A program made the translations under genes and the position numbers. A stretch of 42,760 nt of DNA, taken from IMG/VR virus record IMGVR_UViG_3300031839_001269, positions 1 through 42,760 of that record; one strand, 5' to 3'. Shown here in pieces: positions 1,636 to 18,850 of the stretch; position 1 is the first letter of the stretch; each line of letters opens with the position of its first letter. The notes under the pieces were generated by a model. It searched no databases, was not told the origin of the DNA, and saw only the letters and a list, made by a program, of their open reading frames with translations. Origin of the DNA: a virus.

Positions 1636-1675
1636 ACTGTATCGACTAATGACCGGCCCGTCAACAACGGATACA
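1636..1675 (-). promoter_or_regulatory. Cassette promoter with 38-bp dyad operator (copy 1)
   Basis: On the - strand: -35 TTGACG (1659-1664), 17-bp spacer, -10 TACAGT (1636-1641). The dyad operator covers 1638-1675, with half-sites TGTATCCGTTGTTGAC and (inverted) TGTATCGACTAATGAC separated by 6 bp, so TGAC-N6-GTCA forms the centre. The dyad overlaps both promoter boxes, which suits repression. It drives the 60-codon gene. Confidence 0.8.
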
Positions 1676-1682
1676 ACAATCG

Positions 1683-1707
1683 ATAAAAAAACCGGCCGGA
1701 GCCGGTT
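1683..1707 (-). terminator. Rho-independent terminator overlapping a stop codon
   Basis: On the - strand AACCGGC, loop TCCG and GCCGGTT are followed by a run of T residues and ATC. The stop codon of the 90-codon gene (1706-1708) overlaps the stem. The next cassette's operator begins within about 10 bp, so units are packed end to end. Confidence 0.85.
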
Positions 1708-1978
1708 AGATCGCTGGCGGACACTGCCAGAACGCTGCGAGCTGCTGGTTCTTCCGGCGCCATGCCGAGACCATCGCCCTCGCCTCCTCCTGCCGTCTCA
1801 GGGCGCCGCGATGCGCCCGTTCGGCCCGCGACAGCATGACGCGACACTCGTCCGCCCAGGCCTTGCCGGGGCCGTTCCTGTTGCCCGTCAGGTCGGCCAG
1901 CGCCCTGCGGATCCGGTTCGCCTTTTTCCACGCTTTCCACGCGGCTGCGTATTGCTTGCGGGTCTGCTCGATGTTCAT
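1706..1978 (-). CDS. Small basic helical protein, 90 aa, unknown function
   Basis: The ATG at 1978 overlaps the stop of the upstream gene as ATGA, so the two are translationally coupled. The protein is rich in Ala, Arg, Lys and Trp (Q-Y-A-A-A-W-K-A-W-K-K-A-N; R-R-Q-E-E-A-R) and is probably almost wholly alpha-helical. It has no recognisable enzyme motif. It is the last gene of the cassette that starts with the winged-helix-like gene at 2278, and it ends in an intrinsic terminator. Longer in-frame upstream extensions overlap the neighbour and are rejected. Confidence 0.65.
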   Translation of the reverse strand: MNIEQTRKQYAAAWKAWKKANRIRRALADLTGNRNGPGKAWADECRVMLSRAERAHRGALRRQEEARAMVSAWRRKNQQLAAFWQCPPAI

Positions 1979-2238
1979 GTCGTCGGCTCCTCGTTGCACG
2001 TGTCGCAGTCCGGGTCGGTGCATTTCGTCAGCCCGTCCTGCAGGTCCTCCAACATATGCGCGAGCTGTCCGGCCGCCCAGGGCCCGCGCTCGAAATGATG
2101 CGCGATGCAATGGCAGCCGCTGGCCGTAAAGATCCAGCCTTTCGTGCTCCACGCGTCGAGCTCTCCGGCGGCGCGGTCGTAGTTCACGGTCACGCCCCTG
2201 GCTGCTGCCTCGGCTTTTACTTGCTGAATAGTTGCCAT
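1975..2238 (-). CDS. Small protein with Cys/His C-terminus, 87 aa
   Basis: Starts at the ATG at 2238 with GAGGAG upstream. The N-terminal half (MATIQQVKAEAAARGVTV) is helical; the middle has aromatic residues (W-S-T-K-G-W-I-F-T-A-S-G-C-H-C-I-A-H-H). The C-terminus has C-T-D-P-D-C-D-T-C, a possible metal-binding cluster together with the earlier C-H-C and H-H. Middle gene of a three-gene cassette; its start follows a GGGCCC hairpin that is repeated elsewhere in the genome. Function unknown. Confidence 0.65.
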   Translation of the reverse strand: MATIQQVKAEAAARGVTVNYDRAAGELDAWSTKGWIFTASGCHCIAHHFERGPWAAGQLAHMLEDLQDGLTKCTDPDCDTCNEEPTT

Positions 2239-2252
2239 CGGTTTGATCTCCT

Positions 2253-2281
2253 CGGGCCCCGCAGGGCCCTGGTCGGTTTAT
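2253..2281 (-). repeat. Intergenic GGGCCC hairpin repeat, copy 1
   Basis: A 29-nt segment that matches 5621-5649 with one mismatch. On the - strand it begins at the TAA stop of the upstream gene, continues AACCGA, then forms GGGCCC-TGCG-GGGCCC. There is no T run, so it is not a normal terminator. It lies between the first and second gene of a cassette at both sites, which suggests mRNA stability, processing or attenuation. Confidence 0.7.
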
Positions 2282-2559
2282 CGTGCGGCTTTGAAAACGT
2301 CGTATCCTTTCACGGTCAGGTTGATCATAAAATCGAACTCCTCGCCATGCTGGTCTGCCAGGCCTTTCTTGATCAGGGACCCGAGGACGCCTTTCGCCTG
2401 ATTTACCGTGATGTTGCAGGCCTTGGCTATGTCCTCGACCTCGGTCGCGCAGTAGCAGCAAGCGTAATCCTGCGCCGTGCTAACTTCCGGGCTGTGATCG
2501 TAGCAGCCCTTGACGATCTCTTTGATTGCAGCCATTTCGTAGGTTGTTACGTTTGACAT
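2278..2559 (-). CDS. Winged-helix-like small regulator candidate, 93 aa
   Basis: The ATG at 2559 follows the conserved leader and ribosome site. The C-terminal 55 residues read as a winged helix: V-E-D-I-A-K-A-C-N-I-T-V-N-Q-A-K-G-V-L-G-S-L-I-K-K-G-L, followed by two short strands (F-D-F-M-I-N-L-T) and a helix. A Cys-rich segment (C-C-Y-C) precedes it. It could bind DNA or RNA, or be a degenerate structural winged helix. It is the first gene of its cassette, driven by operator copy 2. An upstream in-frame extension runs through the promoter and is rejected. Confidence 0.7.
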   Translation of the reverse strand: MSNVTTYEMAAIKEIVKGCYDHSPEVSTAQDYACCYCATEVEDIAKACNITVNQAKGVLGSLIKKGLADQHGEEFDFMINLTVKGYDVFKAAR

Positions 2560-2596
2560 GTCGTTTGCTCCCGCTGTTTTCGTTGTCGATGGGTGT

Positions 2597-2636
2597 ACTG
2601 TATCTGTTAGTGACCGCGCCGTCAATACCGGATACA
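2597..2636 (-). promoter_or_regulatory. Cassette promoter with dyad operator (copy 2, most symmetric)
   Basis: - strand -35 TTGACG (2620-2625), 17-bp spacer, -10 TACAGT (2597-2602). The half-sites TGTATCCGGTATTGAC and (inverted) TGTATCTGTTAGTGAC match at 13 of 16 positions and are separated by 6 bp. This is the best palindrome of the set and defines the operator. The region just upstream (2640-2665) has a run of eight T on the - strand after a weak CGG-ATATAA-CCG hairpin, perhaps a decayed terminator of the preceding cassette. Confidence 0.82.
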
Positions 2637-2657
2637 ACTATTTATAAAAAAAACCGG

Positions 2658-2990
2658 TTATATCCGCTGGTATTTCTCCGGCAGGCTGTCCAGCAGCTCG
2701 CGCAGCTCTTTTGTCGCGGGCAGCGGTTCGATCTGCCGGATCCCCATCTGCCAGGATCTTTTTATCGACGCGTAAAGCTGATTCATCCGAGCCGCTTTTC
2801 GGGCCGCGTCGTTGCCGGCGACGATCCCTTTCCCGTTACACTTGAAACAGACGCCGCCTTTCACGTGGCTGAAAGCATCGATCCGGCCGGCGCCGTTATG
2901 GCATCGCGGGCAGTCAGACCATTTTGCGACATGGCGTAAACTTAAATAGACCGGCTTTATCTCGGCTTTCAATTCGTTGAGCGCTCCCAC
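2658..2990 (-). CDS. DnaJ-type zinc-finger-like protein, 110 aa
   Basis: Residues of the pattern C-P-R-C-H-N-G-A-G-R and C-F-K-C-N-G-K-G form two C-x-x-C-x-G-x-G units like the DnaJ cysteine-rich zinc centre, separated by about 18 residues. The rest is helical (N-terminal basic helix, C-terminal E-L-R-E-L-L-D-S-L). Small phage proteins with this fold are common and mostly uncharacterised; a role in DNA or protein binding is only a guess. It follows the 87-codon gene by 3 bp and shares its promoter. No strong terminator follows. Confidence 0.7.
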   Translation of the reverse strand: MGALNELKAEIKPVYLSLRHVAKWSDCPRCHNGAGRIDAFSHVKGGVCFKCNGKGIVAGNDAARKAARMNQLYASIKRSWQMGIRQIEPLPATKELRELLDSLPEKYQRI

Positions 2991-2993
2991 GGT

Positions 2994-3257
2994 TCAGCCC
3001 CTCCCCTTGCCTTTCAGTTTCTTTTCAAACATCGCCCGAGCCTGGTCCATCGGCAGGCCTTCGCGCGCCATTTTTTGGAAATCTGTCCCGGACTGCCGGG
3101 CGGTCAACGCGCAGCAAAACCAGCGAACGGTCATTCCGCCACGAACCCGGCCGTTATAGTTATGTTTCTGGACATAGACGAGCCCGTTTCCATTGGACAG
3201 CTCGACCAGCGCGTAAAATGTCCCGGCGACGTTTTGGCTCTTAGCGATTGTTTTCAT
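2994..3257 (-). CDS. Hypothetical small protein, 87 aa
   Basis: The ATG at 3257 follows AGGAG in a cassette leader. The sequence has an N-terminal beta-rich part (T-F-Y-A-L-V-E-L-S-N-G-N-G-L-V-Y-V-Q-K) followed by W-F-C-C-A-L-T, then a basic helical C-terminus (K-K-L-K-G-K-G-R-G). No family recognised. First gene of the two-gene cassette under operator copy 3. Confidence 0.65.
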   Translation of the reverse strand: MKTIAKSQNVAGTFYALVELSNGNGLVYVQKHNYNGRVRGGMTVRWFCCALTARQSGTDFQKMAREGLPMDQARAMFEKKLKGKGRG

Positions 3258-3295
3258 GGTCGTTTGCTCCTGCCGTTTCTCGATTTGATGGGGTC

Positions 3296-3335
3296 ATTGT
3301 ATCGACTAATGACCAGTCCGTCAACAACGGATACA
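3296..3335 (-). promoter_or_regulatory. Cassette promoter with dyad operator (copy 3)
   Basis: - strand -35 TTGACG (3319-3324), 17-bp spacer, -10 TACAAT (3296-3301), the best -10 of the cassette promoters. Half-sites are TGTATCCGTTGTTGAC and (inverted) TGTATCGACTAATGAC with a 6-bp centre. The leader between -10 and ATG diverges from the other copies more than the operator does, suggesting that the operator is under selection. Confidence 0.8.
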
Positions 3336-3344
3336 ACTATTTAT

Positions 3345-3369
3345 AAAAAAAGCCCGATCGGAACCGGGC
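3345..3369 (-). terminator. Rho-independent terminator
   Basis: - strand GCCCG, an 8-nt loop and CGGGC are followed by TTTTTTT. It ends the long cassette whose last gene is the membrane/beta-rich protein at 3398, and sits immediately upstream of operator copy 3. Confidence 0.82.
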
Positions 3370-3397
3370 AACCTGAGCAAACAACAATGCAAGGGTT

Positions 3398-3859
3398 TCA
3401 GTCTACCCGCCAGCCAGGCACGAACGCAAGCGCATTGCCGAGCAAAAACGTCGCCGGCCGGGACCAGTCGATCCGCGCCTGCGCTTCGAGCATGATCAGC
3501 GGCGACACGCCCGCGACGTTGACCACGTGGTCACGGTAGCCGACCATCGCCCCGGCAGTGACCGCCAGCTCGACCGACGCGTCCGGCTGCCAGGCGAACC
3601 GACGACCGGCGAACGCGGTCCAGTCGCAGAAACTATTCCGGAACACGCCGCCGATATAGCCGCCGCCCTCGTAGGCTAGCAGGGGATGCGCCTCGCAATA
3701 GTCCCCGCCGCCCAGATGGGTCGACAGGGCCCCGGTGTAAAGCGTGCCGGCCTGGGCGCTCGGCGGGAACAGCAGGACGATCAGCCAAAAGATCCCGGCC
3801 ATAATGGCCAGCCCCATCGCAGCGATCAGTCCGACAAGTATGTTCCGCAGCCATTTCAT
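3398..3859 (-). CDS. Secreted beta-rich (outer-membrane-like) protein, 153 aa
   Basis: Residues 4-31 are a strong hydrophobic segment (I-L-V-G-L-I-A-A-M-G-L-A-I-M-A-G-I-F-W-L-I-V-L-L-F) ending in S-A-Q-A-G, which reads as a signal peptide or membrane anchor. The mature part has alternating hydrophobic/polar strands, with E-A-H-P-L-L-A-Y-E-G-G-G-Y-I-G-G-V-F-R-N-S-F ... S-V-E-L-A-V-T-A-G-A-M-V-G-Y. Small phage-encoded periplasmic or outer-membrane beta proteins carry a similar N-S-(F/L)...G-(L/A)-V-x-G-Y pattern. A role at the host surface, such as superinfection exclusion, is inference. Its start overlaps the upstream gene as ATGA, and a terminator follows. Confidence 0.65.
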   Translation of the reverse strand: MKWLRNILVGLIAAMGLAIMAGIFWLIVLLFPPSAQAGTLYTGALSTHLGGGDYCEAHPLLAYEGGGYIGGVFRNSFCDWTAFAGRRFAWQPDASVELAVTAGAMVGYRDHVVNVAGVSPLIMLEAQARIDWSRPATFLLGNALAFVPGWRVD

Positions 3860-4062
3860 CCGACGGCCCTCCTGACGCCCTGCAGGGTCTCTCGGGCCCG
3901 TTTAAGCCGGCAGGCTATCGAGGCGCGGCTCTCGCCCGGTTTGGTCCGGAGAGAGATCCCCACGCGGCCGCAGCTGCCCCTCGGTCTGCTCATGCGGTAC
4001 AGCAGCGAGCCGTCGCCGCACTCGATGCGCTGGTTCTGGAATGGGTTCGCTTTTGGTCTCAT
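3856..4062 (-). CDS. Small basic hypothetical protein, 68 aa
   Basis: The ATG at 4062 is coupled by ATGA overlap to the upstream gene, and the stop overlaps the next start in the same way. The protein is Arg-rich with three Cys residues (I-E-C-G-D-G-S-L-L-Y-R-M; G-S-C-G-R-V; I-A-C-R-L-K-R). It could be a small nucleic-acid-binding protein, but no family is recognised. Conserved tight coupling on both sides is the main support that it is translated. Confidence 0.6.
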   Translation of the reverse strand: MRPKANPFQNQRIECGDGSLLYRMSRPRGSCGRVGISLRTKPGESRASIACRLKRARETLQGVRRAVG

Positions 4063-4484
4063 GTCATCGGCTCCCCGCACTCGCGACAGCTCTCGGCTTT
4101 CGCCCCGTTGAATATGTAACAGCGCGGGCAGATCTTGCTCGGCTGGCGGCCTCGATCCAGCTCCTCGCAGAGCTCGTCGATCAGGTCGACCACTGTCCGG
4201 CTGTTGTCGTTCCGATCGCCCAGGATGTCCCGGATCCGATCCGACTGCGCGACAGCGAACTGAATGCTGCGCTCGCATGCCGGGCACGATTCGGGCTCGT
4301 CCCGCTGCGCCTCGTATTGCATCAGCTGCATTTCCTCGACGCTGGCGTCATGCTGCAGGCTGTCGATCGAGCGCGGCCCGATTTCGGCCAGATCGCGGAT
4401 CTCGCCGACCGTCTCGGCCATTTTACGACCGAGCGCCGTTATCGCTGCCGACCCCGCTCCGATTACCATGATCACGCGTTTCAT
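4059..4484 (-). CDS. Zinc-ribbon protein with helical middle, 141 aa
   Basis: A hydrophobic N-terminus (M-K-R-V-I-M-V-I-G-A-G-S-A-A-I) may be a membrane anchor. An acidic helical middle contains C-P-A-C-E, and the C-terminus I-C-P-R-C-Y-I-F-N-G-A-K-A-E-S-C-R-E-C-G forms a clear four-Cys zinc ribbon with paired C-x-x-C knuckles. Function unknown; zinc ribbons are frequent in phage accessory proteins that contact nucleic acid or host enzymes. Part of a nine-gene, mostly ATGA-coupled unit. Confidence 0.68.
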   Translation of the reverse strand: MKRVIMVIGAGSAAITALGRKMAETVGEIRDLAEIGPRSIDSLQHDASVEEMQLMQYEAQRDEPESCPACERSIQFAVAQSDRIRDILGDRNDNSRTVVDLIDELCEELDRGRQPSKICPRCYIFNGAKAESCRECGEPMT

Positions 4485-4666
4485 AATTGCCCCCTAAGTC
4501 TGGACAGAACTTCCCGGCCGCGTTTCTTGTCCTGTTCGCGCCAGCGCTCGGCGTGCGTCCTCGTGTCCGGCTTGCACTCGGGCGGCTCCGGATCTTTTAC
4601 GTCCCAGGCCAGCCCGCAGAGCGCGCACTGCATCTGATCGCTATACTGTCGCGCCTTGCAGGTCAT
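4481..4666 (-). CDS. Small zinc-finger-like protein, 61 aa
   Basis: The pattern M-Q-C-A-L-C-G-L-A-W-D-V-K-D-P-E-P-P-E-C contains C-x-x-C-G-x-x-W-D and a downstream Cys. This resembles the small phage zinc-finger proteins whose Cys residues flank 'G..WD....P.C'. The C-terminal half is a basic helix (R-W-R-E-Q-D-K-K-R-G-R-E). It is coupled by 4-nt overlaps to both neighbours. Exact role unknown. Confidence 0.68.
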   Translation of the reverse strand: MTCKARQYSDQMQCALCGLAWDVKDPEPPECKPDTRTHAERWREQDKKRGREVLSRLRGQL

Positions 4667-4848
4667 CGCCGAGCCCCCCGCCGCTTGACCTTGGCCAGCC
4701 GCTTTTTGATCAGCCGTTCCTTGACCGGTCCGACGCTTCCCGTGCGATCGAATTCCGTCAGCGCGGACTGCAGCAGGCTGGACAGCCTGGCGTCGCCCTG
4801 CGTGAATTCTTCCAGTTCGGCGACCTCTTTCTCGGTTAGTTCAGGCAT
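4663..4848 (-). CDS. Small charged helical protein, 61 aa
   Basis: Starts at the ATG at 4848. The N-terminal half is acidic (T-E-K-E-V-A-E-L-E-E-F) and the C-terminal half strongly basic (K-E-R-L-I-K-K-R-L-A-K-V-K-R-R-G-A-R-R), so it is a bipolar helical peptide. No known family. It overlaps both neighbours in the operon. Confidence 0.6.
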   Translation of the reverse strand: MPELTEKEVAELEEFTQGDARLSSLLQSALTEFDRTGSVGPVKERLIKKRLAKVKRRGARR

Positions 4849-5026
4849 TCCCGTTTCTCCTCACAGTGACATCGTTCCCGCGACGCTCGACCGACAGCGT
4901 GACGTCGCCGGTCGGGGTCTCATAGGTCAAATAATTGCGGCGGCCGCCCTCGGCGTGTTGCGCTGCCTGGTAGGCGAGCTGCCATTCGAGCTCGGTCCGG
5001 ATCCCGATCAGTATGAACCGTTTCAT
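4841..5026 (-). CDS. Small hypothetical protein, 61 aa
   Basis: The ATG at 5026 sits in an ATGA overlap with the stop of the 53-codon gene. A short hydrophobic start (M-K-R-F-I-L-I-G-I) is followed by a helix (E-W-Q-L-A-Y-Q-A-A-Q-H-A) and a two-stranded C-terminus (D-V-T-L-S-V-E-R-R-G-N-D-V-T-V). No family recognised. Supported by coupling and by lack of any alternative frame. Confidence 0.6.
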   Translation of the reverse strand: MKRFILIGIRTELEWQLAYQAAQHAEGGRRNYLTYETPTGDVTLSVERRGNDVTVRRNGNA

Positions 5027-5184
5027 GCGATCCCCTGCAGCTGCTCGACGCGGTGTTCGAGCGCCTGAACCTCGTCAGACACGCGCAGCCGTTCCAGTTC
5101 GAGCCGGCGGTGCACTTCCCGAGCGACCGCGTCGTCGTCGATCATCTTGATCAGATCCGTGTTCGTGGCCTCACTTAATCGCAT
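5023..5184 (-). CDS. Small coiled-coil protein, 53 aa
   Basis: The frame starts at the ATG at 5184 inside the end of the preceding gene (14-nt overlap), and its TGA overlaps the next ATG. The protein starts MRLSEATNTDLIKMIDDD, and the rest is a long heptad-like helix (R-R-L-E-L-E-R-L-R-V, then V-Q-A-L-E-H-R-V-E-Q-L). It fills what would otherwise be a 145-bp gap in a tightly packed operon. Function unknown; likely oligomeric. Confidence 0.6.
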   Translation of the reverse strand: MRLSEATNTDLIKMIDDDAVAREVHRRLELERLRVSDEVQALEHRVEQLQGIA

Positions 5185-5608
5185 CGCGGACGACCTCCTC
5201 GAATGCTACACCAAACCGCGCCCGGGCCGCTTCCATAATGTCAGCATACGCCAGCAGCGCCTCGCGCTCCGGGTTCGACTTGAGCCCGAGCCGTCCGGCC
5301 ATCTGGACCGGGACGTTCGCCTGCAGGAACCGCGTGATCCCGCTCGGCGTGCGAGCAGGTCCCGGCCGGCGGAACAGATGCTCGTCGGTCAGGATCCGGG
5401 GCTGCTCGTCCATGCAGCAGGCCTCGCCGACGTGCTCTATACCATCCTTGCCGACCATCCGGACCGGATGCGAGCACCAATACCAGAGCCCGCCGTACAC
5501 AAAAGCGAACCGGGCCCACTCGGGCGCCTGATCCCACGGCAGCAGGGCGTTGACGCGGGCCCATTCGTTGCGGCGAGTTTCGCTTGCGGTTGTTAGTGCG
5601 TTTTGCAT
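5171..5608 (-). CDS. Hypothetical protein, 145 aa
   Basis: I chose the ATG at 5608 because GGGAG lies 8 nt upstream; an upstream GTG at 5615-5617 would overlap that ribosome site. The protein is rich in Trp and aromatic residues in the first half (W-A-R-V-N-A-L-L-P-W-D-Q; G-G-L-W-Y-W-C-S-H-P) and helical in the second. C-C-M-D-E and the earlier C-S-H could bind metal. No family recognised. It follows the GGGCCC hairpin repeat copy 2. Confidence 0.65.
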   Translation of the reverse strand: MQNALTTASETRRNEWARVNALLPWDQAPEWARFAFVYGGLWYWCSHPVRMVGKDGIEHVGEACCMDEQPRILTDEHLFRRPGPARTPSGITRFLQANVPVQMAGRLGLKSNPEREALLAYADIMEAARARFGVAFEEVVRDAIK

Positions 5609-5620
5609 GTCGTTCACTCC

Positions 5621-5649
5621 CGGGCCCCGCAGGGCCCTGTTCGGTTTAT
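5621..5649 (-). repeat. Intergenic GGGCCC hairpin repeat, copy 2
   Basis: Matches 2253-2281 except for one base. Again it starts at the TAA of the first gene of a cassette and ends just before the ribosome site of the second. GGGCCC on both arms with a 4-nt loop makes a very stable hairpin without a T tract. Confidence 0.7.
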
Positions 5650-5876
5650 TGTTGGTCGTCTGCGCCTATGATCGGGGCCATGCTGTACGAGCCCCACGGC
5701 TTGACCTGCTCGACGCCCTCGTACTCGGAGATCCGCAGGCGCTTTTCGCCACGGAACGAGCCGCAGTCGGCGATAATGGTTTTCGCGGTCCGCTTGATGA
5801 CGCGGATCTCGATAATGCAATCGTGGTTGCAGATGCTGCGGGTCGCGTAGGTCTTGCCGGTCTCGAATTTGGTCAT
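5646..5876 (-). CDS. Conserved small phage protein, 76 aa
   Basis: The ATG at 5876 follows the conserved leader with AGGAG. The protein begins M-T-K-F-E-T-G-K-T-Y-A-T-R-S-I-C-N-H-D-C and ends G-S-Y-S-M-A-P-I-I. I recall small phage proteins with the pattern F-x-x-G-K-T-Y-x-T-R-S-I-C-(D/N)-H-(D/N)-C-I and a terminal Y-S-M-A-P. Their function is unknown to me. The C-x-H-x-C group might bind zinc. First gene of the longest accessory cassette (down to 3398). Confidence 0.72.
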   Translation of the reverse strand: MTKFETGKTYATRSICNHDCIIEIRVIKRTAKTIIADCGSFRGEKRLRISEYEGVEQVKPWGSYSMAPIIGADDQQ

Positions 5877-5914
5877 GTCGTTTTGCTCCTGCTGTTTTCG
5901 TTGTCGATGGGTGT

Positions 5915-5954
5915 ACTGTATCGACTAATGACCGGGACGTCAACAACGGATACA
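5915..5954 (-). promoter_or_regulatory. Cassette promoter with dyad operator (copy 4)
   Basis: - strand -35 TTGACG (5938-5943), 17-bp spacer, -10 TACAGT (5915-5920). Half-sites TGTATCCGTTGTTGAC and (inverted) TGTATCGACTAATGAC are the same as in copy 1, with a different 6-bp centre. No terminator separates this promoter from the upstream gene (stop 5956-5958), so the replication transcript could read through. Confidence 0.8.
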
Positions 5955-5955
5955 A

Positions 5956-6189
5956 CTATTTTTTCGCGATGTCGATCCGCTGCTGCTCGATTTCCTTCCC
6001 GCGCAGGGCGGACGCGATTATATCGTCCGCGTCCTCGATCGCGTCCTTGTGCCCGCGCTTACCGGTCGCGAGCGCCTTTTTTATCAGGTGCTGATAGGCT
6101 GCGTTAGTGGTCCCGAACGCCTCGATCACGTCGTACACGTCGACGAAAACGCCCGGTTTGATCTCGCGATGATATTTTGAATGCTTCAC
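5956..6189 (-). CDS. Small helical protein, 77 aa, GTG start
   Basis: The start is GTG at 6189: GGAGG lies 8 nt upstream, and GTGA couples it to the stop of the replicase gene. The protein begins V-K-H-S-K-Y-H-R-E-I-K-P-G-V-F-V-D-V-Y-D-V-I-E-A-F and has a central A-x-Q-H-L-I-K-K-A-L-A-T-G-K-R-G-H-K-D segment. Phage genes with the pattern 'Y-D-V-(I/L)-x-A-F ... A-x-x-H-A-x-K-K-L-L' are common small proteins near replication genes. Function unknown. Confidence 0.7.
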   Translation of the reverse strand: MKHSKYHREIKPGVFVDVYDVIEAFGTTNAAYQHLIKKALATGKRGHKDAIEDADDIIASALRGKEIEQQRIDIAKK

Positions 6190-8831
6190 GTGTTGAACCT
6201 CCGCTCGGCATCGGATCCGGCCGCCTGGATGGCGCCCTGCGCCTCCTGATACAAGCGGGCCGCCTCGTTGGCCGATGTAATGTTTGCGTGTATGTGCCCG
6301 TCCCGGATGAACAGGCGCGGTTTCTTGTTGTCGTCCAGCGGGATGTTGATGTTCGTCCGGCCGTCTCTCAGCGCTGGATGATAGTCGTACCCGAGAGACT
6401 GCAGCAGCTCGCGGCGCTTGTTGTGCGGTATGCTCCGCGCGGCCCTGATCGACTGCAGCAGGCGCTCGACCGCGACGGACGAGATCCATCCGCCAGCGAA
6501 CCCGGGACGATCCTCCGCCACGGCTTCGAGAATTTCCTGCTCGACTCCGCCCATCGACTGGCTGATCGCCTCCTCGGTCGTGCTGGTCTGCGGGGCCCTA
6601 TGGCATCGGGTCGCCGGGTTCAGCTCGTCCGGGATGGCGTACTCGGCCAGGTAGTCCGCGACCACGGCGTACCCGTGATTTTCCCCGAGGGCGGCGTACT
6701 CGTTGCGCCCTTTCAGCCAGTCGTACAGGGCCGGGAAGTACGTCCCGTTCATGCCGTCGCGGACCAGATCCTGCTCGGTCTGCTGGGCGGTATAGAACAC
6801 GCTGAACCGGCGGTCGGTGCGTGTCTTGCGGATGGCGTCTTTGTGATTGCTGTTCAGCATGAAATTCGCCCGGTTGTCGCCCATGACCTGCGACTGCTGC
6901 ATCGCCCGCATGGCGAGTCGGTCGTTCGTGATCATCGGTTTCAAGATCTCGATAATCTCCCGTTTATGCTCTGGGACGTAAACGTCCTCGATGCCGATAA
7001 ACAGTTTGTTGAATAGCCACTCGTTGAACTTTTCGCTGATCTCATTGGCTGGCGGCTGGTGCGTATAGCGCTGACCGACCGCGAACGCCACGCAGCGAGT
7101 GAGCAGCGTTTTCCCGTTACCCTCAGCCCCCTGCAGCAGCGGCGCCCATTGGAATTTTACGCCCTTGTGCTGGATGCACGCGGCCATATAGGCGAGGATG
7201 ATCGCCCGATCGCCTGGATCCGGCAGGATCTTTTCGACATGTTTCAGGAATGGCGTCGGGTCGCCCTTGACGCGCGGAGTCGCGACCGGCTTGTACGTGT
7301 TGACCAGCGCGTCGCCCTCCTCGTAAATGATCGCCCCCGGCTCGACATCCGGCCGGAAACAGGTCGCCGCCGCTTTCGGATAGCGGACCAGCTGCGACTC
7401 GGTGAACGCGTCCCAGGCTTTACGGGTTGTCTTGCCGCCCGAGCTGTCCATCTGGAACGTGTAGCCGCCATAGGTCGCGTTGAATTGCTCGGACTTGAGC
7501 AGGGCCCCGTCCGGCGTGAATACTTTGTGCAGGCTCTGCACGTAAACGCAGCCGCTGAAATAGTCGATCTGCTGCGTCGCCCCCAGATACTGAAACCCCT
7601 CGCGGACTTCGGGCGCCAGGCTGTCGGAGAGTTTCGGCGGGGCTGCCTGGCTGACCGGCGTGATCATGGCCGCCAGCTGCTCGCCGGACTTGTCTCGATG
7701 GTCGAGCCATAGTTTCGGGTCGGTCTGCTGGGCGAGCGCCTGCAGCATGTCCCCGGGCAGGCCTGCGGCCTTGAATTCGGCGAACCGCTCCGCCCGTATC
7801 GACTCGGCGAATTGACGCTGCGCGTCGCTGCTCGCCTTGAGACGGGCTGCGCCGTACTCGTCGACCGTTGTCGTGTCAGCGTCCGGCCGAGTCGAGAAAA
7901 CCGTCTCCTGCATGCCGACAGCGTTCAGAATCGTGCGGTGTAAATAGTCCTCGCGCTCCCACTTATCGCGAACGAGGCCGGATCGCCACATCAGCCGCAG
8001 GATTCGCTCGCAGTCGTTGCCGGTCCAGAACGCCAGATGCTGCGCGAGCGCCGCGTCCGCCTGGCTGCCATTGTGGCCGCTGCCGTCCGGGTAAGATCGC
8101 GCCAGCGCCTCCTCGTCGCCTTCCCAGAGCTGCAGGAACGATGCGCCCTGCCCGAATGCCCCGGCGGCGCTACGGCTCGCGCAGGCGCGCTCGATCAGTT
8201 CGTCGTCGTCCTCCGGCCCGGTGTAGCCGTCGACCGGCTCCTCGGTCCACTCGTCCACGCCTGACCGGGCTGCGGATTTCTGGAAGTAGTTCGCGACCAG
8301 CTGCGGAAACCAGTCGCAGACCGTGTCAGCGGATCCCTGCGCGCCATTGCTGGACAGCGCGACGAACCGTTTCTCGGTGTATAGTTCGAGCCCGAGCTGG
8401 TCGTTCCGGCTGCCGTGCGGGATGTCTGCCGGGACCCTGCCGAATACGTGCAAGCCTCGGCCGCTGCTGGAAACCGACACGGCCGCGCCTTGGCAATAGC
8501 CGAGCAGCTGCTGCGCGAGCGGGCTCCACGTGTTGTCGGGCTGCAGGCAGCGGTCGATGTCGAGGAAAAAGAAAGGATCGGCCGCCGTAAAGAAAAAGCC
8601 GATCCCGTAGGTGTCGCCGCAGAGCCCCGCCAGGCGGATCGCCTCGTCTGCGGATGTCCACGCGGTGGGGTCGTTCTGCCAGTCGCTGCCCTTGGCAAAT
8701 ACCTGCAGGGTCCGATGATCGACCGGATATTTCTCAAACTTGCCGGGCTCTTTTTGGCTCGGGACGTATTTGCAGAGAATGAACTGCCTGTACTCCGCCA
8801 GCGGCCGGAGCGCGTCGGGTAATTGCTGCAT
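6186..8831 (-). CDS. Primase-polymerase/SF3 helicase replicase, 881 aa
   Basis: N-terminal part: an archaeo-eukaryotic-type PrimPol domain with D-I-D at residues 91-93 (metal-binding acidic pair), S-S-S-G-R-G-L-H at 121-128 and E-L-Y-T-E-K-R-F at 149-156, the usual order of the catalytic and nucleotide-binding motifs. C-terminal part (about 540-720): SF3 helicase with Walker A G-A-E-G-N-G-K-T near residue 569, an acidic I-G-I-E-D Walker B and N-S-N-H sensor motif. The layout matches phage NrS-1-type replicative proteins that prime and unwind DNA. The same genome encodes a family A polymerase, so this protein may mainly prime and unwind. The ATG at 8831 lies 12 bp after the regulator gene. The next gene is coupled by GTGA. 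Confidence 0.88.
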   Translation of the reverse strand: MQQLPDALRPLAEYRQFILCKYVPSQKEPGKFEKYPVDHRTLQVFAKGSDWQNDPTAWTSADEAIRLAGLCGDTYGIGFFFTAADPFFFLDIDRCLQPDNTWSPLAQQLLGYCQGAAVSVSSSGRGLHVFGRVPADIPHGSRNDQLGLELYTEKRFVALSSNGAQGSADTVCDWFPQLVANYFQKSAARSGVDEWTEEPVDGYTGPEDDDELIERACASRSAAGAFGQGASFLQLWEGDEEALARSYPDGSGHNGSQADAALAQHLAFWTGNDCERILRLMWRSGLVRDKWEREDYLHRTILNAVGMQETVFSTRPDADTTTVDEYGAARLKASSDAQRQFAESIRAERFAEFKAAGLPGDMLQALAQQTDPKLWLDHRDKSGEQLAAMITPVSQAAPPKLSDSLAPEVREGFQYLGATQQIDYFSGCVYVQSLHKVFTPDGALLKSEQFNATYGGYTFQMDSSGGKTTRKAWDAFTESQLVRYPKAAATCFRPDVEPGAIIYEEGDALVNTYKPVATPRVKGDPTPFLKHVEKILPDPGDRAIILAYMAACIQHKGVKFQWAPLLQGAEGNGKTLLTRCVAFAVGQRYTHQPPANEISEKFNEWLFNKLFIGIEDVYVPEHKREIIEILKPMITNDRLAMRAMQQSQVMGDNRANFMLNSNHKDAIRKTRTDRRFSVFYTAQQTEQDLVRDGMNGTYFPALYDWLKGRNEYAALGENHGYAVVADYLAEYAIPDELNPATRCHRAPQTSTTEEAISQSMGGVEQEILEAVAEDRPGFAGGWISSVAVERLLQSIRAARSIPHNKRRELLQSLGYDYHPALRDGRTNINIPLDDNKKPRLFIRDGHIHANITSANEAARLYQEAQGAIQAAGSDAERRFNT

Positions 8832-8843
8832 GATGCCCCCGGG

Positions 8844-9338
8844 TTAAATTGACAATCTGGCGGCGGCTTTCAGCTCGTCGGGCGCTTTCATAACGTGTTG
8901 ATCACTGCAGGCCAAACCCTGCGCGACGATCTCGGGGATCTCCCGCGCGATGGCGGCCCGGATAATGGCGCGGCGCAGCTGTTTCATAGTCCCGAAATAT
9001 TTCGTCACGAGACCGGTCGACACGCCTGCCCGATCAGCGACCTGCTGCCTGCTGATATTCGCATACCCGAACGTCCGGGACAGATCGACGGCCGCGTCGA
9101 GGATGCTGCTTTTCCGCAGCTCCGGATTCGCCCGCGCTTTCGTGACCGGGATATGCCGGCCGTCGAATAGTTCGTCCTTGAGCTCTGCCACGAACTCGTT
9201 AAACGTGCAGCCCGCATAGTAACTGAACGAGCCCGGCGCGATTTCCGCCCGGTCGCAAAGCGCCTGCCGGGACAGGTTGATCAGCCCCGTCTCGCGGGCC
9301 ATTGTTTTAGCCAAAGATAAAAGATCGCCTTTAGTCAC
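8844..9338 (-). CDS. Repressor-like protein with two tandem TetR-type HTH units, 164 aa
   Basis: GTG start at 9338 with AGGAG 8 nt upstream. Residues 79-131 are a TetR-type DNA-binding domain (I-L-D-A-A-V-D-L-S-R-T-F-G-Y-A-N-I-S-R-Q-Q-V-A-D-R-A-G-V-S). Residues 5-55 align with it: A-K-T-M-A-R-E-T-G-L-I-N-L-S-R-Q-A-L-C-D-R-A, with NLSRQ/NISRQ, DRA and YY/YF in the same places. There is no room for the usual TetR ligand-binding domain. The gene has its own promoter/operator (9371-9410) of the type found at five other sites, so autoregulation and control of the whole set is the simplest inference. It is the only clear DNA-binding regulator besides the 93-aa winged-helix candidate. Confidence 0.8.
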   Translation of the reverse strand: MTKGDLLSLAKTMARETGLINLSRQALCDRAEIAPGSFSYYAGCTFNEFVAELKDELFDGRHIPVTKARANPELRKSSILDAAVDLSRTFGYANISRQQVADRAGVSTGLVTKYFGTMKQLRRAIIRAAIAREIPEIVAQGLACSDQHVMKAPDELKAAARLSI

Positions 9339-9370
9339 TTTATTCGCTCCTGTTGGTTCAATATCGCCCG

Positions 9371-9410
9371 ATACTATCCGTTACTGACGGGGCGGTCAAT
9401 ACGAAACGGC
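9371..9410 (-). promoter_or_regulatory. Regulator promoter with divergent dyad operator (copy 5)
   Basis: - strand -35 TTGACC (9394-9399), 17-bp spacer, -10 TAGTAT (9371-9376). TGAC-N6-GTCA is conserved (9385-9398). One half-site keeps TATCCGTTACTGAC; the other is degenerate (TTTCGTATTGAC). The site lies within the 3' end of the upstream gene, whose TAG stop overlaps the -10 box. A weaker operator on the regulator gene itself is what autoregulation would call for. Confidence 0.75.
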
Positions 9411-9592
9411 GCCCGGCTGTAAAGTATGGACCCGTCGCCGCTGCCGTAAATGATCAGGGCCGGCCGCCGCACTCGATACCCGTCGCCCAGGCACTGGACG
9501 ACCTCGTCGATCGACTGGAACCCCGAGTCGACGCTAGGGCCGGTTGTTTCTTTGTCCGATTCTCTGAACGGTGTCGCGTAAATCATAGTCAT
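9374..9592 (-). CDS. Small hypothetical protein, 72 aa
   Basis: The ATG at 9592 overlaps the preceding stop as ATGA. The protein begins M-T-M-I-Y-A-T-P-F-R-E-S-D and contains R-P-A-L-I-I-Y-G-S-G-D-G-S-I-L-Y. Its 3' end carries the regulator promoter and operator, so coding and regulatory sequence overlap. No family recognised. Last gene of the helicase operon. Confidence 0.62.
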   Translation of the reverse strand: MTMIYATPFRESDKETTGPSVDSGFQSIDEVVQCLGDGYRVRRPALIIYGSGDGSILYSRAPFRIDRPVSNG

Positions 9593-9927
9593 CCCCACGG
9601 CGCCCAGACCGGGATCCCGGCGGCGCTTGCTTTTTGTTTCATGTCGGCGGTCCCGGATTGCCCGGGCATCGCCAGGCAGTAGTCCGGCCGCAGCCACAGC
9701 ATCGCGGAATTCCGCAGCGGCCCCGCCCCGTTTCCGTAGGTATCCCAGAGCGCCGGGACCGTGGCGTAATGGATCCCGTTGATCACGGCATACGTCCGGC
9801 CCATACGGTCGGCCCCTTTCGCTCCGCCCTCGATGATCAAAGTCGGGCGCCCCGGCAGCGCGTCCATCGCCTGCTTGAACCGCTCCCAATCCGACCAGCC
9901 CCGGCCGCCGCAGACGAGCAGGATCAC
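9589..9927 (-). CDS. SLOG-domain (DUF2493/YspA-like) protein, 112 aa
   Basis: Start is GTG at 9927, coupled by GTGA to the upstream stop and preceded by GGGAG 8 nt away. The sequence begins I-L-L-V-C-G-G-R-G-W-S-D and continues with L-I-I-E-G-G-A-K-G-A-D-R-M-G-R and L-A-M-P-G. These are the Rossmann-like nucleotide-binding motifs of the SLOG superfamily (DUF2493). Members are thought to bind nucleotide-derived ligands; many phages encode one near replication genes. The substrate is unknown. It is about the expected length for a single SLOG domain. Confidence 0.8.
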   Translation of the reverse strand: MILLVCGGRGWSDWERFKQAMDALPGRPTLIIEGGAKGADRMGRTYAVINGIHYATVPALWDTYGNGAGPLRNSAMLWLRPDYCLAMPGQSGTADMKQKASAAGIPVWAPWG

Positions 9928-10118
9928 GGCTCGATCTCCCGGAAAAAATTCGGATCCCATGCGCCGAACGCGTAATACCCGATCACGACCTGACAGGGCA
10001 CGCATTCGACCTCGTACTCGCTCGCGACGCCCCCGTCGATCGCTTTCAGATTCGTGCAGAAATTATCGCCCCCGCACTCCGGGCAGCTGGTCGGCTCGCC
10101 GTTCTTGTTCGTGGTCAA
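9924..10118 (-). CDS. Zinc-ribbon small protein with TTG start, 64 aa
   Basis: TTG at 10118 is coupled to the upstream TGA (TTGA), with GGAGG 7 nt upstream. The protein has C-P-E-C-G-G-D-N-F-C and later C-V-P-C, forming a four-Cys ribbon, then an aromatic C-terminus (Y-Y-A-F-G-A-W-D-P-N-F-F). Such 'Lar-like' small zinc ribbons that end in G-x-x-x-x-x-A-W-(D/N) are common in phages; Lar alleviates restriction in Rac, but the similarity here is only at the level of fold and length. Confidence 0.65.
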   Translation of the reverse strand: MTTNKNGEPTSCPECGGDNFCTNLKAIDGGVASEYEVECVPCQVVIGYYAFGAWDPNFFREIEP

Positions 10119-10591
10119 AACGTCCCCTCCCCTGTTGCAAATGACGCGTCGCCCCCCAGGCTGACCACGAGGTCGGCGAATTTCAGCTGCGCCTGCTCGC
10201 GTTTCGTGCCGGTATAGCGCCAGTCGCCCGGCTTGACTTCCCGGCAGACGAACTGCCCGATCGTCCGGCCGATCATAGCCGGCGTGATCTCGACCGGCTG
10301 CAGGCCGACCAGATCGTGCGACTTGATCGTCTGGTTCATGGCTTTCGAGTCGTTGGCCAGGCCGTAGCGTATGAAACGCCCCGTCTCGTCGTAGTAGCCG
10401 CCGACATTGTTCCGCCATAGGATCGCCCCTTTTTTGCTCGCTTCGAGCCTGACGGCTGCCTGAACGGCCGCCTCGGATCGTCCCGTCAGCTGCTCGGGCT
10501 CGCCCGTATTGATCGCGCGCATCCGGGCCCGGAGGTCCGCCAGCGCCTCGGGCCGAATGCCCCACTGTATCGCCCATTCGTTCAGCATCAT
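10115..10591 (-). CDS. VRR-NUC (PD-(D/E)XK) nuclease, 158 aa
   Basis: The pattern S-E-A-A-V-Q-A-A-V-R-L-E ... L-W-R-N-N-V-G-G-Y-Y-D-E-T-G-R ... S-H-D-L-V-G-L-Q-P ... Q-F-V-C-R-E-V-K-P-G-D-W ... Q-L-K-F-A-D-L-V follows the VRR-NUC fold: an N-terminal Glu helix, D in 'S-x-D-L-x-G', and E-x-K. Members are structure-specific nucleases, standalone in phages and next to a helicase. Here the helicase gene is one gene upstream, which supports a joint role in replication or repair of branched DNA. The start at 10591 overlaps the stop of the upstream gene. Confidence 0.82.
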   Translation of the reverse strand: MMLNEWAIQWGIRPEALADLRARMRAINTGEPEQLTGRSEAAVQAAVRLEASKKGAILWRNNVGGYYDETGRFIRYGLANDSKAMNQTIKSHDLVGLQPVEITPAMIGRTIGQFVCREVKPGDWRYTGTKREQAQLKFADLVVSLGGDASFATGEGTF

Positions 10592-10821
10592 TATCGGAGC
10601 CCCCGGATCGTGACGCCCGCGACAGGGATGTCCACGGTCTCGACGGCCTCGGCCATAATCGCGGCGCGCTCGTGCGGATCCGTGACCGGATGCCGGCGCT
10701 GCAGGTAGTCAGTCTGCCCGTCCGGGCACTCGAAAAGCCATGTCTCTTTGACAATCGGCTCGCCCTGCTCGATGTCGACGTCGAGCGTTTTGGTTTCGCG
10801 GTCTGCGTATCGTTTAGCCAT
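10591..10821 (-). CDS. Small hypothetical protein, 76 aa
   Basis: The ATG at 10821 overlaps the helicase stop by 8 nt, with GAGGGGA upstream. Sequence M-A-K-R-Y-A-D-R-E-T-K-T-L-D-V-D-I-E-Q-G-E-P, with an acidic middle and a possible R-R-H-P-V turn. Helicase-adjacent small genes of this kind have no assigned function. I see no catalytic motif. Confidence 0.6.
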   Translation of the reverse strand: MAKRYADRETKTLDVDIEQGEPIVKETWLFECPDGQTDYLQRRHPVTDPHERAAIMAEAVETVDIPVAGVTIRGLR

Positions 10822-12586
10822 GTTTTCTGATCCCCTCAAGGTCTGCATTGATTCGGGCCGTCAGGGCCTCGATGTTTTCTTTCGGTTGCTGGACGTCCTG
10901 ACAGCTCAATACGTCCACGCCATAGCGCAGATAGAACCGCCGGAACCCCTCGCTGTCGCTCCGGCCCTGCGCGCGCTGCCAGCCGCCGAACCACGCGATC
11001 GCATCTTTCAGCCCGTCGATCGCTTTCAGTTTATCCGCGTATCGCTTGACGTGCCCCATCTGGCCAATCCCCGGGACGTTTTTCGCGGCCAGCTCCTCGC
11101 GATACTCGGCCGGCGTTTTGTGCTGCGTCAGCCCCCGCATCTGCTCCAGCGTTGCCGCGTCGAGCTCTGCCAGGTCCCCGTCGACGAACTCCGGACCGCT
11201 GCGCGCGACCGGCTCCGGTTTGTGCTGGCAGTACGGACATTGTGGGAAAAACCGTTCATAGACTCGCGTACAGGACGGGCAGGACTTGGTCGGAATGACG
11301 TCCTCGGGCTGGCCGCTGCTGCTTTTCTCGCGGCGATCAAGCGACCAGATCCGCGCCGCATCCGGCAGGCCGTGGCGGTGTACGTTGCCCACGTGGTCGA
11401 TAATGATCGCGCTTGGCTTGTCGCTGGCGGCGATGATCGCCCGGCGCTGCTCGTCGGTGTAATTGTCCCAGCCGCGCCCGAGCGACGGGTCGAGCATCAG
11501 TCGCAGGGCCCGGCCGAACTGCTGCGCGAAAAGACTGTACGACTGCGTCGGCCTGGCCATGCTGACGACCTCGATCGCGGGCAGATCGAACCCCTCGCCG
11601 AACAGGTCCACGTTCACGAGCTGCAGGATCTCGCGGTTCTTGAATTGCCGCAGGATGGCGATCCGCTCCGCGTCGGGCGTTTCGGCCGTCACGACCTTGG
11701 CCGGAATCCCCCGGGCCGTGAAGGCGGTCGCCGTGTCGATCGCGTCCTCGACATCCGGGACGAAAGTGATCCCGAGTTTCCCGTTTGCGTGTTTGATGTA
11801 CTGGTCGACCACGTCGCCGATCACGCGGTTTTTATTCTGGCGAAACTTCCGGACCACGGCGTCGCGCTTGTACTCGCCCGTCGAGGCGCTGACGTCCTCG
11901 GCGCCCATCATTAGAGCGGGCGGCGGTGCATAGACTCGATAGTCCGTCAGGTATCCGGCCGAGATCAGGTCGCGCATGGTCGGGCCCTCGACGATCGCAT
12001 CGAATACCCCGTCAGCGTGCCGGCCGAGCCCCTTCCCGTCGGCCCTGCAGGGCGTGGCGGTCGGCCCGAGCCCCTTCGCGTTCGGGAACATATCGACGCC
12101 GGCGCCCCACTTGTTGCCCCGCAGGACGTGATGCGCCTCGTCCATTACCCAGAGCGTGACGGTCGGCAGCCAGCTGGCGAGCTCTTTTTTCCTGCGAACC
12201 AGCGTGTCCACGCCGGCGACTGCGATTTTGCTGTTCGGGTCGTAGTAGGATTTCCCGAGCTCCAACATGTGCAGATTGACGATCTGTTTCACGGCCGCCT
12301 GCGGTCCGATGATCCGATGCCGGACGCCGTTCCGCGCCAGAGCGATCGAGATCTGCGACACGAGCTCGCGCCGGTGAGCGACCGCGCAGGCCGCCCCGTG
12401 GTTCTCGAACAGGATGTCGGACAGGACGACCGTTTTCCCGCCGCCGGTCGGCAGGACGGCCAGAACATTGCGGTCGCCTCGGTCCCAGGCGGCGTATATC
12501 TGCTGCTTTGCTTCCTGCTGGTATGGTCGCAGCGTTGGCCGGTTCGCCCGGTCGATCGCTGCAGGTAGGGGTTTCTGAACGAGCAT
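10814..12586 (-). CDS. DEAD/DEAH-box (SF2) DNA helicase, 590 aa
   Basis: I chose the ATG at 12586: GGGAA is 6 nt upstream and the protein then begins just before the R-P-Y-Q-Q-E-A Q-motif-like segment. Walker A P-T-G-G-G-K-T is at residues 46-52, D-E-A-H at 149-152. The C-terminal RecA domain has T-A-E-T-P-D-A-E-R, N-V-D-L-F-G-E-G-F-D-L-P (motif V) and Q-x-F-G-R-A-L-R (motif VI). A C-P-S-C ... C-P-Y-C zinc finger (motif spacing about 11 residues) follows near residue 450. Such UvrB/RecG-like SF2 helicases are encoded beside VRR-NUC and PolA in phages and probably process replication forks. It is divergently placed from the + operon. Confidence 0.88.
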   Translation of the reverse strand: MLVQKPLPAAIDRANRPTLRPYQQEAKQQIYAAWDRGDRNVLAVLPTGGGKTVVLSDILFENHGAACAVAHRRELVSQISIALARNGVRHRIIGPQAAVKQIVNLHMLELGKSYYDPNSKIAVAGVDTLVRRKKELASWLPTVTLWVMDEAHHVLRGNKWGAGVDMFPNAKGLGPTATPCRADGKGLGRHADGVFDAIVEGPTMRDLISAGYLTDYRVYAPPPALMMGAEDVSASTGEYKRDAVVRKFRQNKNRVIGDVVDQYIKHANGKLGITFVPDVEDAIDTATAFTARGIPAKVVTAETPDAERIAILRQFKNREILQLVNVDLFGEGFDLPAIEVVSMARPTQSYSLFAQQFGRALRLMLDPSLGRGWDNYTDEQRRAIIAASDKPSAIIIDHVGNVHRHGLPDAARIWSLDRREKSSSGQPEDVIPTKSCPSCTRVYERFFPQCPYCQHKPEPVARSGPEFVDGDLAELDAATLEQMRGLTQHKTPAEYREELAAKNVPGIGQMGHVKRYADKLKAIDGLKDAIAWFGGWQRAQGRSDSEGFRRFYLRYGVDVLSCQDVQQPKENIEALTARINADLEGIRKHG

Positions 12587-12594
12587 ACATTTCC

Positions 12595-12635
12595 CGTTAT
12601 CCAGTGTTGACAGAGCCGTCACTATAGCATAATGT
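12595..12635 (+). promoter_or_regulatory. Early + strand promoter with dyad operator (copy 6)
   Basis: + strand -35 TTGACA (12607-12612), 17-bp spacer, -10 TAATGT (12630-12635). A CATAAT at 12628 with a 15-bp spacer is an alternative. TGAC-N6-GTCA lies at 12608-12621. The half-sites TTATCCAGTGTTGAC and (inverted) TTATGCTATAGTGAC share the TAT-C...TGAC skeleton of the cassette operators. It sits between the divergent helicase and early operons. A symmetric but weak - strand promoter (GTGACG/TAACGG) would leave almost no leader for the helicase gene. Confidence 0.72.
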
Positions 12636-12671
12636 CGGCAGCGTTCAACAAGCGAAAAGGAGCTGAACAAC

Positions 12672-13550
12672 ATGAAAGACCCGATTTCAATCACGATCCC
12701 ATTCGAGTATCACGCCCTGACGCGAGCGTCGGATTTTCTCCACGGTCTCGCCCAGGACGCAAAGGTCGCCGGCATGCAGGACCGCGTGACCGAGCAGGGG
12801 CCGACCATTACCGGCCCGACGCCAGACCCCGACCACGTACCCGACGAGGACTACCCGGCATCGCGCGAACTAGAGGCCGAGGAAGATTTCGATCTCGACC
12901 ACGCGCCTAATCGGGACCCGTCGGCGGCTTTTGGGAGCGGGGCGGACGATGCGACGACTGCGGCGGGACCGGAGTCTGCCCCGCATGCGGAGACGACGGC
13001 GGGCGCTGCTCACACTGCCGACACGTCGGAGCCTGCCCCATCTGCAGCGGGTCCGGCAGCTGCTGATCTGGATCTCGACGCCGACGGCCTGCCGTGGGAC
13101 GGCCGGATCCATTCGAGCAGCAAAAAGAAACTGGCCAAAACCAAACAATGGAAAAAGCGCCGCAAGCCGAACGATCAGGCCGAGGATCAATGGGAACGGT
13201 ACGTCGAGAGCGTCGAGGCCGAACTGCGCCGCGTGATGCAGGCCGGACCGCATGCCCCTGTCGAGGCCAAACAGCCGGAGCCCGAGCCGGAGAAAGCCGC
13301 CGGACCGACTCCTCCGCCCGCTGCAGCCGACAAGCCGGCCGCGCCGACAGGACCGACCCCGCCGCCAGCGGCGACCGGATCCGCTGAAATCAAAACGCTG
13401 CCGGAGCTGTTCCGTCTGATCACGGACAACAACATCAGCGACGACAAGGTCATGGCCGCCATAAACGCGCAGGGGATCGACTCGCTGCCGTTGCTGGGCG
13501 CCCGCCCCGACCTGATCCCGGCCGTCGCCAAAGCGCTGCAGGAGGGTTAA
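12672..13550 (+). CDS. Pro/Ala-rich early protein, 292 aa
   Basis: ATG at 12672 with AAGGAG 9 nt upstream. The N-terminal 25 residues are compact (I-S-I-T-I-P-F-E-Y-H-A-L-T-R-A-S-D-F-L); a long acidic Pro/Ala/Thr-rich part follows, then the motif D-L-D-A-D-G-L-P-W-D-G-R-I-H-S-S-S-K-K-K, then another Pro/Ala linker and a C-terminal helical domain (A-E-I-K-T-L-P-E-L-F-R-L-I-T). The 'LPWDxRIHx(S/G)' motif is widespread in phage early proteins of unknown role, usually encoded near nucleases and SSBs. It heads the replication operon, so a role in replication is inferred from context only. Confidence 0.75.
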   Translation: MKDPISITIPFEYHALTRASDFLHGLAQDAKVAGMQDRVTEQGPTITGPTPDPDHVPDEDYPASRELEAEEDFDLDHAPNRDPSAAFGSGADDATTAAGPESAPHAETTAGAAHTADTSEPAPSAAGPAAADLDLDADGLPWDGRIHSSSKKKLAKTKQWKKRRKPNDQAEDQWERYVESVEAELRRVMQAGPHAPVEAKQPEPEPEKAAGPTPPPAAADKPAAPTGPTPPPAATGSAEIKTLPELFRLITDNNISDDKVMAAINAQGIDSLPLLGARPDLIPAVAKALQEG

Positions 13551-13553
13551 GGC

Positions 13554-15640: not shown

Positions 15641-15649
15641 ACCCCTATC

Positions 15650-15677
15650 GGCCGCCCTCCGGGGCGGTCATTCTTTT
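15650..15677 (+). terminator. Weak terminator or attenuator hairpin
   Basis: CCGCCC (15652-15657), loop TCCG and GGGCGG (15662-15667) extend by two weaker pairs, and the run TCATTCTTTT follows. It lies 10 bp after the SSB stop, so the polymerase genes may be expressed at a lower level than the SSB. The T tract is interrupted, so it probably attenuates rather than stops transcription. Confidence 0.55.
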
Positions 15678-15690
15678 GGAGTATCACACC

Positions 15691-15903
15691 ATGCTGAAAT
15701 TTCTGGTTTGGCTGTTTCATACCCCCCGCGTCACTTGGTTCGATTTTGTCCTGTTCGTCGTTGCTGTCGTGTTCGTCGAGGGCTGGATCGGTCTCCTCGT
15801 GCTAGTGATCGGCCTTTTTGTCGGGACGTTTGTCGGGGGCTTGGCTCGCGCGTGGCAGCGGGACATCGAGAACGACTGCGACGTCGGGCCGGTTAAAAAA
15901 TGA
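15691..15903 (+). CDS. Small two-helix membrane protein, 70 aa
   Basis: ATG at 15691 with TGGAG 9 nt upstream; the stop overlaps the polymerase start (ATGA). Two hydrophobic segments (about residues 17-29 and 31-50: F-D-F-V-L-F-V-V-A-V-V-F-V, then W-I-G-L-L-V-L-V-I-G-L-F-V-G-T-F-V-G-G) form a hairpin, and a charged tail follows. An inner-membrane protein inside a replication operon is unexpected. It might tether replication to the membrane or act in exclusion. No family recognised. Confidence 0.65.
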   Translation: MLKFLVWLFHTPRVTWFDFVLFVVAVVFVEGWIGLLVLVIGLFVGTFVGGLARAWQRDIENDCDVGPVKK

Positions 15904-18302: not shown

Positions 18303-18307
18303 TCATT

Positions 18308-18847: not shown

Positions 18848-18850
18848 ACC

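Follow-up and report, generated by a model that had tools for sequence, protein, structure and literature searches.

A tandem-HTH TetR-type protein is the probable repressor acting at seven 38-bp dyad promoters in the early region of an uncultured phage

The window, meaning the whole stretch of DNA that was analyzed, is the complete 42,760-bp record IMGVR_UViG_3300031839_001269 of an uncultured virus. A structural module of the contractile-tail type (sheath, baseplate, tape measure, portal, and terminase) occupies 21–42 kb, and the early region at 1–20 kb carries genes for DNA polymerase, helicase, primase, nuclease, and RdgC. The last of these, at 18851–19771 in the early operon, encodes a full RdgC homologue (Pfam 4.9e-80), akin to a RecA-modulating protein of bacteria. 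No tyrosine integrase was found across the whole 42,760-bp record, and no phage in the annotated collection matched the stretch 5000–20000 at the DNA level. At the left end of the record, AAGCGGCTAGC-like motifs are repeated at 61–130 and 1120–1420. The features relevant to the control of the early region are collected in Table 1.

Table 1. Predicted operators, associated promoters, and linked genes in the window.
Feature	Coordinates	Strand	Promoter and genes served	Evidence or remarks
Operator 1	1638..1675	-	Promoter 1636-1664 (TTGACG-17-TACAGT) for 60-aa gene 1416-1598	30.6 bits; promoter-coupled; downstream ORF
Operator 2	2599..2636	-	Promoter 2597-2625 for 93-aa gene 2278-2559	32.9 bits; 13/16 half-site match
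Operator 3	3298..3335	-	Promoter 3296-3324 for 87-aa gene 2994-3257	30.6 bits
Operator 4	5917..5954	-	Promoter 5915-5943 for gene 5646-5876 and the accessory run below	30.6 bits
Operator 5	9373..9410	-	Promoter 9371-9399 for regulator and primase/helicase operon; autoregulatory (predicted)	24.9 bits
Operator 6	12596..12633	.	Between divergent operons	33.0 bits
Operator 6, + promoter	12607-12635	+	Serves 12672-13550 onward	
Operator 6, - promoter	12648-12621	-	TTGAAC-N16-TATAGT, for helicase	-10 inside operator 6
Operator 7 (intragenic)	14594..14631	+	Promoter 14605-14633 reading to gene 14702-15640	27.7 bits
Tandem TetR_N-type regulator, 164 aa	8844..9338	-		GTG start; RBS CAGGAG; Pfam, hhalign, AF2, relatives
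NrS-1-pol-like primase/helicase	6186..8831	-	Co-operonic with regulator	Pfam PF22763, PF19263
Helicase gene	10814..12694	-	Read from divergent side of operator 6	phrog_16 DNA helicase 8.7e-90; ResIII
DUF2800/PDDEXK nuclease gene	13554..14705	+	Houses operator 7	Pfam DUF2800 2.1e-29

An earlier note on this DNA had described six dyads centered on TGAC-N6-GTCA. All six are present, but the total is seven, the additional site lying within the nuclease gene. Every one of the seven, all located between 1.6 and 14.7 kb, combines TTGAC, a 17-bp spacer, and TAnnnT. The promoter coupling that the note reported is borne out by counts for the pattern TTGAC-N6-GTCA-N8-TAnnnT, which fixes the 17-bp spacer exactly and occurs seven times in the window versus none in 300 dinucleotide shuffles. 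The shorter core TGAC-N6-GTCA occurs nine times versus 0.4 expected from such shuffles (maximum of three in 300), and the N6 spacing is specific. As reported, the two halves of the second copy agree at 13 of 16 positions.

The note had also proposed scanning the sequence with a position matrix against background. By using a half-site matrix trained only on the dyads of other phages, from which the window and its near relatives were excluded, we found that the seven sites score 24.9–33.0 bits and are separate from everything else: the eighth-best place in the window scores −1.1, which leaves a gap of 26 bits, and the best score in 40 shuffled genomes is 12.5 bits. Core matches at 3508 and ~37181–37193 are attributed to chance by the full matrix. 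The second of these, which is core-only and not promoter-coupled, leaves intact the statement that the late region has no site. The observation is thus real and stronger than first reported.

The described placement of the sites also holds, but operator 6 additionally spans a divergent promoter for the helicase operon. Similar divergent promoters, likewise with the −10 inside the operator, are present at its counterpart in four relatives (L003, L006, L007, and L009), and the helicase gene likely starts near 12587. The position of operator 5 is likewise orthologous in relatives. The dyads at 9373 and 14594 each have one degraded outer arm.

Sites 1–4 have a common leader, are alike over much of the operator, and are copies of one promoter-leader cassette, so only four kinds of site are independent within the window. 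The main support for the operator comes from other phages, not from the copies in the window. Four near-copies of the complete promoter-operator-leader-RBS cassette (1551–1675, 2512–2636, 3211–3335, and 5830–5954) precede unrelated small genes, as if accessory genes were carried with a ready-made regulated promoter.

The candidate regulator heads its own operon. Pfam recognizes a TetR_N domain at residues 79–125 (7.6e-13, 48.5 bits with a cut-off of 24), herein called HTH2. The N-terminal half contains a further HTH (HTH1) that is unseen by Pfam but is homologous to HTH2 (hhalign probability 96.5, E 9e-10). AlphaFold2 predicts two confident HTH folds joined by a disordered linker at residues 59–68 (pLDDT 85.1), and the relative pose of the two HTHs is not fixed by the model (pTM 0.55). 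The best Foldseek PDB matches are TetR-family folds, albeit weak ones (E about 0.01) because of this unfixed domain arrangement. Only about 30 residues follow the helices of HTH2, which leaves no room for a ligand-binding domain, and therefore induction by a small molecule is not expected. The operator in front of the regulator is the weakest-scoring of the set, as would be expected if the regulator's own promoter closes last.

The tandem protein is encoded in more than 20 related phage loci at 33–80% identity. Tandem relatives are found in Shewanella phage SppYZU01 (49%), in Acinetobacter phage Scuro (41%), in more than 20 loci from IMG/VR, and on two contigs from metagenome bins. In nearly all of the tandem loci this dyad is present at early promoters, among which the regulator's own is often one. 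It recurs upstream of the regulator, after the primase, in the gap that separates the helicase from the divergent operon, and close to the end of the nuclease gene. Dyad-bearing tandem-HTH phages span 40 to 62% G+C, and even the A+T-rich Scuro has the dyad at the regulator, the divergent gap, and the nuclease end. Orthologous sites among relatives are not independent of one another. Dyads are absent or altered in the divergent tandem members L024–L026 and L039. In an otherwise similar locus (L007:8049–8540), the regulator frame is broken after 76 residues by a stop or frameshift that is either real or an assembly error. The co-occurrence of the dyad and the tandem-HTH gene in phages of such different G+C supports the earlier suggestion that a single phage protein may govern these promoters.

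A second group of relatives encodes a protein of ~92–94 aa that consists of HTH2 and the tail only. This group includes Jedunavirus JD001 (Klebsiella), Peatvirus PEAT2 (Pectobacterium), Yokohamavirus MSW-3 (Edwardsiella), and vB_KsaM-C1. In the stretches read, TGAC-N6-GTCA occurs 12, 11, 6, and 10 times, respectively, versus 0.3–0.6 expected for each from base composition, and many of these sites are promoter-coupled. The difference resides in the outer arms. When both arms were scored by leaving one phage out at a time, the median was −8.6 bits for single-HTH sites versus +15.5 bits for tandem sites (AUC 0.98). Arm medians were negative in five of five single-HTH loci of the first set and positive in 18 of 18 tandem loci, and a few single-HTH sites in further loci score up to +10, such that the separation is strong but not absolute. 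A comparison of the window sites with single-HTH sites by the upstream arm only was not significant (p 0.2) because the upstream sequence at some single-HTH sites is A/T-rich and is scored in part as an arm. Since the arms accompany the tandem protein and are lacking with the single-HTH protein, the simplest reading is that the inner dyad would be recognized by HTH2 and the outer arms by HTH1.

We lean slightly toward the view that a change in HTH number, from one to two or from two to one, is matched by the operators at every regulated promoter (16 bp versus 38 bp), the intragenic site included, and that an entire regulon was thereby re-tuned to a domain duplication or, in reverse, to a loss. 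The tandem phages may share one ancestor, in which case few independent events might underlie the link between HTH1 and the outer arms; the resolution of the HTH2 tree is poor.

The TGAC dyad is absent in relatives whose recognition helices differ. At least two of these have a 5-N6-5 palindrome of their own at early promoters (GTAGCG-N6-CGCTAC in PY6 and GGGCT-N6-AGCCC in AeroV_348), present in few copies each, which provides a lead to candidate operators of these phages. Palindromes of this set, which also includes ATAGTTACGTAACACTA, occur at early promoters in L035 (404, 8014, 12382, and 13289), L004 (8061, 15870, and 20829), and L031 (4015, 4631, and 17850), where they are likely to serve as those relatives' own operators.

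Operator 7 offers a view of the dyad under coding constraint. In 14 tandem phages, ATT GAC nnn nnn GTC ATT is retained within the nuclease gene, except that GTT replaces the first ATT in the two of these that encode Val there. Over the whole gene, conserved residues are encoded by the same codon in only 53% of cases. Among 17 conserved Val columns, the codon is invariant only at operator 7, and both Ile columns with invariant codons also reside there, an outcome reached in 0 of 200,000 permutations. In JD001, PEAT2, and KsaM-C1, the peptide GIDPSV(I/V) is kept, but ATC is used for ATT (together with GTT in JD001 and PEAT2), and therefore the operator is broken. JD001 and PEAT2 instead carry a dyad in the intergenic gap just past the nuclease gene. 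The diverged tandem member L024 also keeps the peptide but uses GTT. By these codon comparisons, operator 7 appears to be under selection at the DNA level, as an operator predicts.

These findings make it probable that the 164-aa protein is an autoregulated phage repressor that uses two TetR-type HTHs to shut host-type early promoters through the 38-bp dyad. Two protein copies would occupy one dyad and bring four HTHs to it, with the HTH2 pair on the inner TATTGAC-N6-GTCAATA, each HTH1 presumably on an outer TAT(C/T)C arm, and dimerization predicted to occur through the C-terminal helices. Four HTHs per dimer would also explain the 38-bp length, which the earlier note had called long for a normal homodimer. 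Even spacing of the four HTH contacts along a single face of the DNA (11/10/11 bp) was rejected, as the information-weighted spacing is ~9/12/9. Because the dyad covers strong sigma70 promoters from the −35 through the spacer to the −10, the bound dimer should exclude host RNA polymerase. On infection, the early genes, the accessory genes, and the regulator would be transcribed at once. As the regulator accumulates, all these promoters, its own included, would be closed and early transcription would end. Binding, repression rather than activation, and the timing of these events are inferred from sequence comparison, as are the dimer and the HTH1 assignment.

Several other explanations were weighed against the repressor model. 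The pattern could be a conserved sigma70 promoter spread by copied cassettes with no operator at all, given that sites 1–4 copy one cassette and that the −35 and −10 belong to the motif. We regard this as very improbable. GTCA lies inside the spacer at a fixed N6, the upstream outer arm lies outside the promoter, and both are conserved at unrelated genes and in other phages. In the tandem group, T-A/G beside TTGAC and the G-x-A of the spacer are conserved too; the arm, the T-A/G, and the G-x-A are dispensable for sigma70. Moreover, codon choice preserves the intragenic copy. It is also improbable, although less so, that the dyads serve a host repressor adopted by the phage and that the phage protein has another task. 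TTGAC-type palindromes would suit many host regulators and the phage promoters are host-type, but the same dyad accompanies the gene in Shewanella, Acinetobacter, and many uncultured phages, commonly on the gene's own promoter, and gene relatives with other recognition helices are without it.

Somewhat less unlikely is that the dyad-bound protein acts as an activator, or as repressor and activator alike, in an early-to-middle switch. Dual roles occur in some phage regulators, and all sites are on early genes; nevertheless, the dyad spans the −35, spacer, and −10 of promoters with a near-consensus −35 and 17-bp spacing, a position from which a bound dimer would keep polymerase away. The most serious doubt concerns only a part of the repressor model, in that the outer arms may be read not by HTH1 but by the HTH2 domains of additional dimers or by the linker, or may reflect DNA shape. 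The distances of ~9 bp from outer to inner and ~12 bp from inner to inner contacts make no even turn, and the linker is flexible. We consider this variant a minority view, as strong outer arms occur with the tandem protein and are missing with the single-HTH protein, and as both halves of the dyad preserve them.

Among known tandem TetR proteins, Mce3R of Mycobacterium tuberculosis (PDB 9b7y) comes closest; it is the best PDB sequence match of the regulator alignment and likewise carries two non-identical TetR-type HTHs in one chain. Mce3R is an autoregulated repressor whose 406-residue double TetR unit includes a ligand-binding domain and places its HTHs on one 25-bp asymmetric site (PMC11667970), whereas the phage protein doubles the HTH only and its predicted operator is a 38-bp palindrome. 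The ‘TetR’ proteins of JD001, PEAT2, and MSW-3 share the homologous HTH2 and C-terminal tail, the gene order, and the inner TTGAC-N6-GTCA at early promoters, but they have one HTH in 92–94 aa and are without consistent outer arms; JD001 has lost the operator at the nuclease end and has one in the adjacent intergenic gap. Classical TetR/AcrR proteins (TetR, QacR, and EilR) have the TetR_N fold in common with each HTH and have operators that overlap promoters, as the predicted operators here do, but the phage regulator has a duplicated HTH and no ligand-binding domain. Cro is an autoregulated early-promoter shut-off protein. The proteins of lambda and PY54 resemble the regulator in its predicted role alone, since their HTH family is unrelated, and the system described here differs from theirs in its 38-bp operator, its many scattered sites, and the lack of a detected tyrosine integrase. 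By analogy, we infer that the regulator is an early shut-off repressor that is Cro-like in role.

Literature searches, with most subscription journals outside their scope, yielded no account of the 38-bp operator or of a phage tandem TetR. A related TetR gene in Oceanospirillum phage PD0307 was taken as an auxiliary gene of the antibiotic-resistance type (PMC10132091), and the literature found otherwise leaves the gene unexplained. PD0307 itself is without the TGAC dyad, but our comparisons point to control of phage promoters instead of a resistance role, at least in the relatives studied. The repressor model thus offers a concrete early-gene control system for a myovirus-like phage group that includes Klebsiella phages studied for therapy. 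The protein and its sites recur in distant viruses, so the link between repressor and site is testable. The single- and double-HTH versions, with their short and long operators, form a natural series for repressor-operator co-evolution, and the long orthogonal operators may find use as repressor parts.
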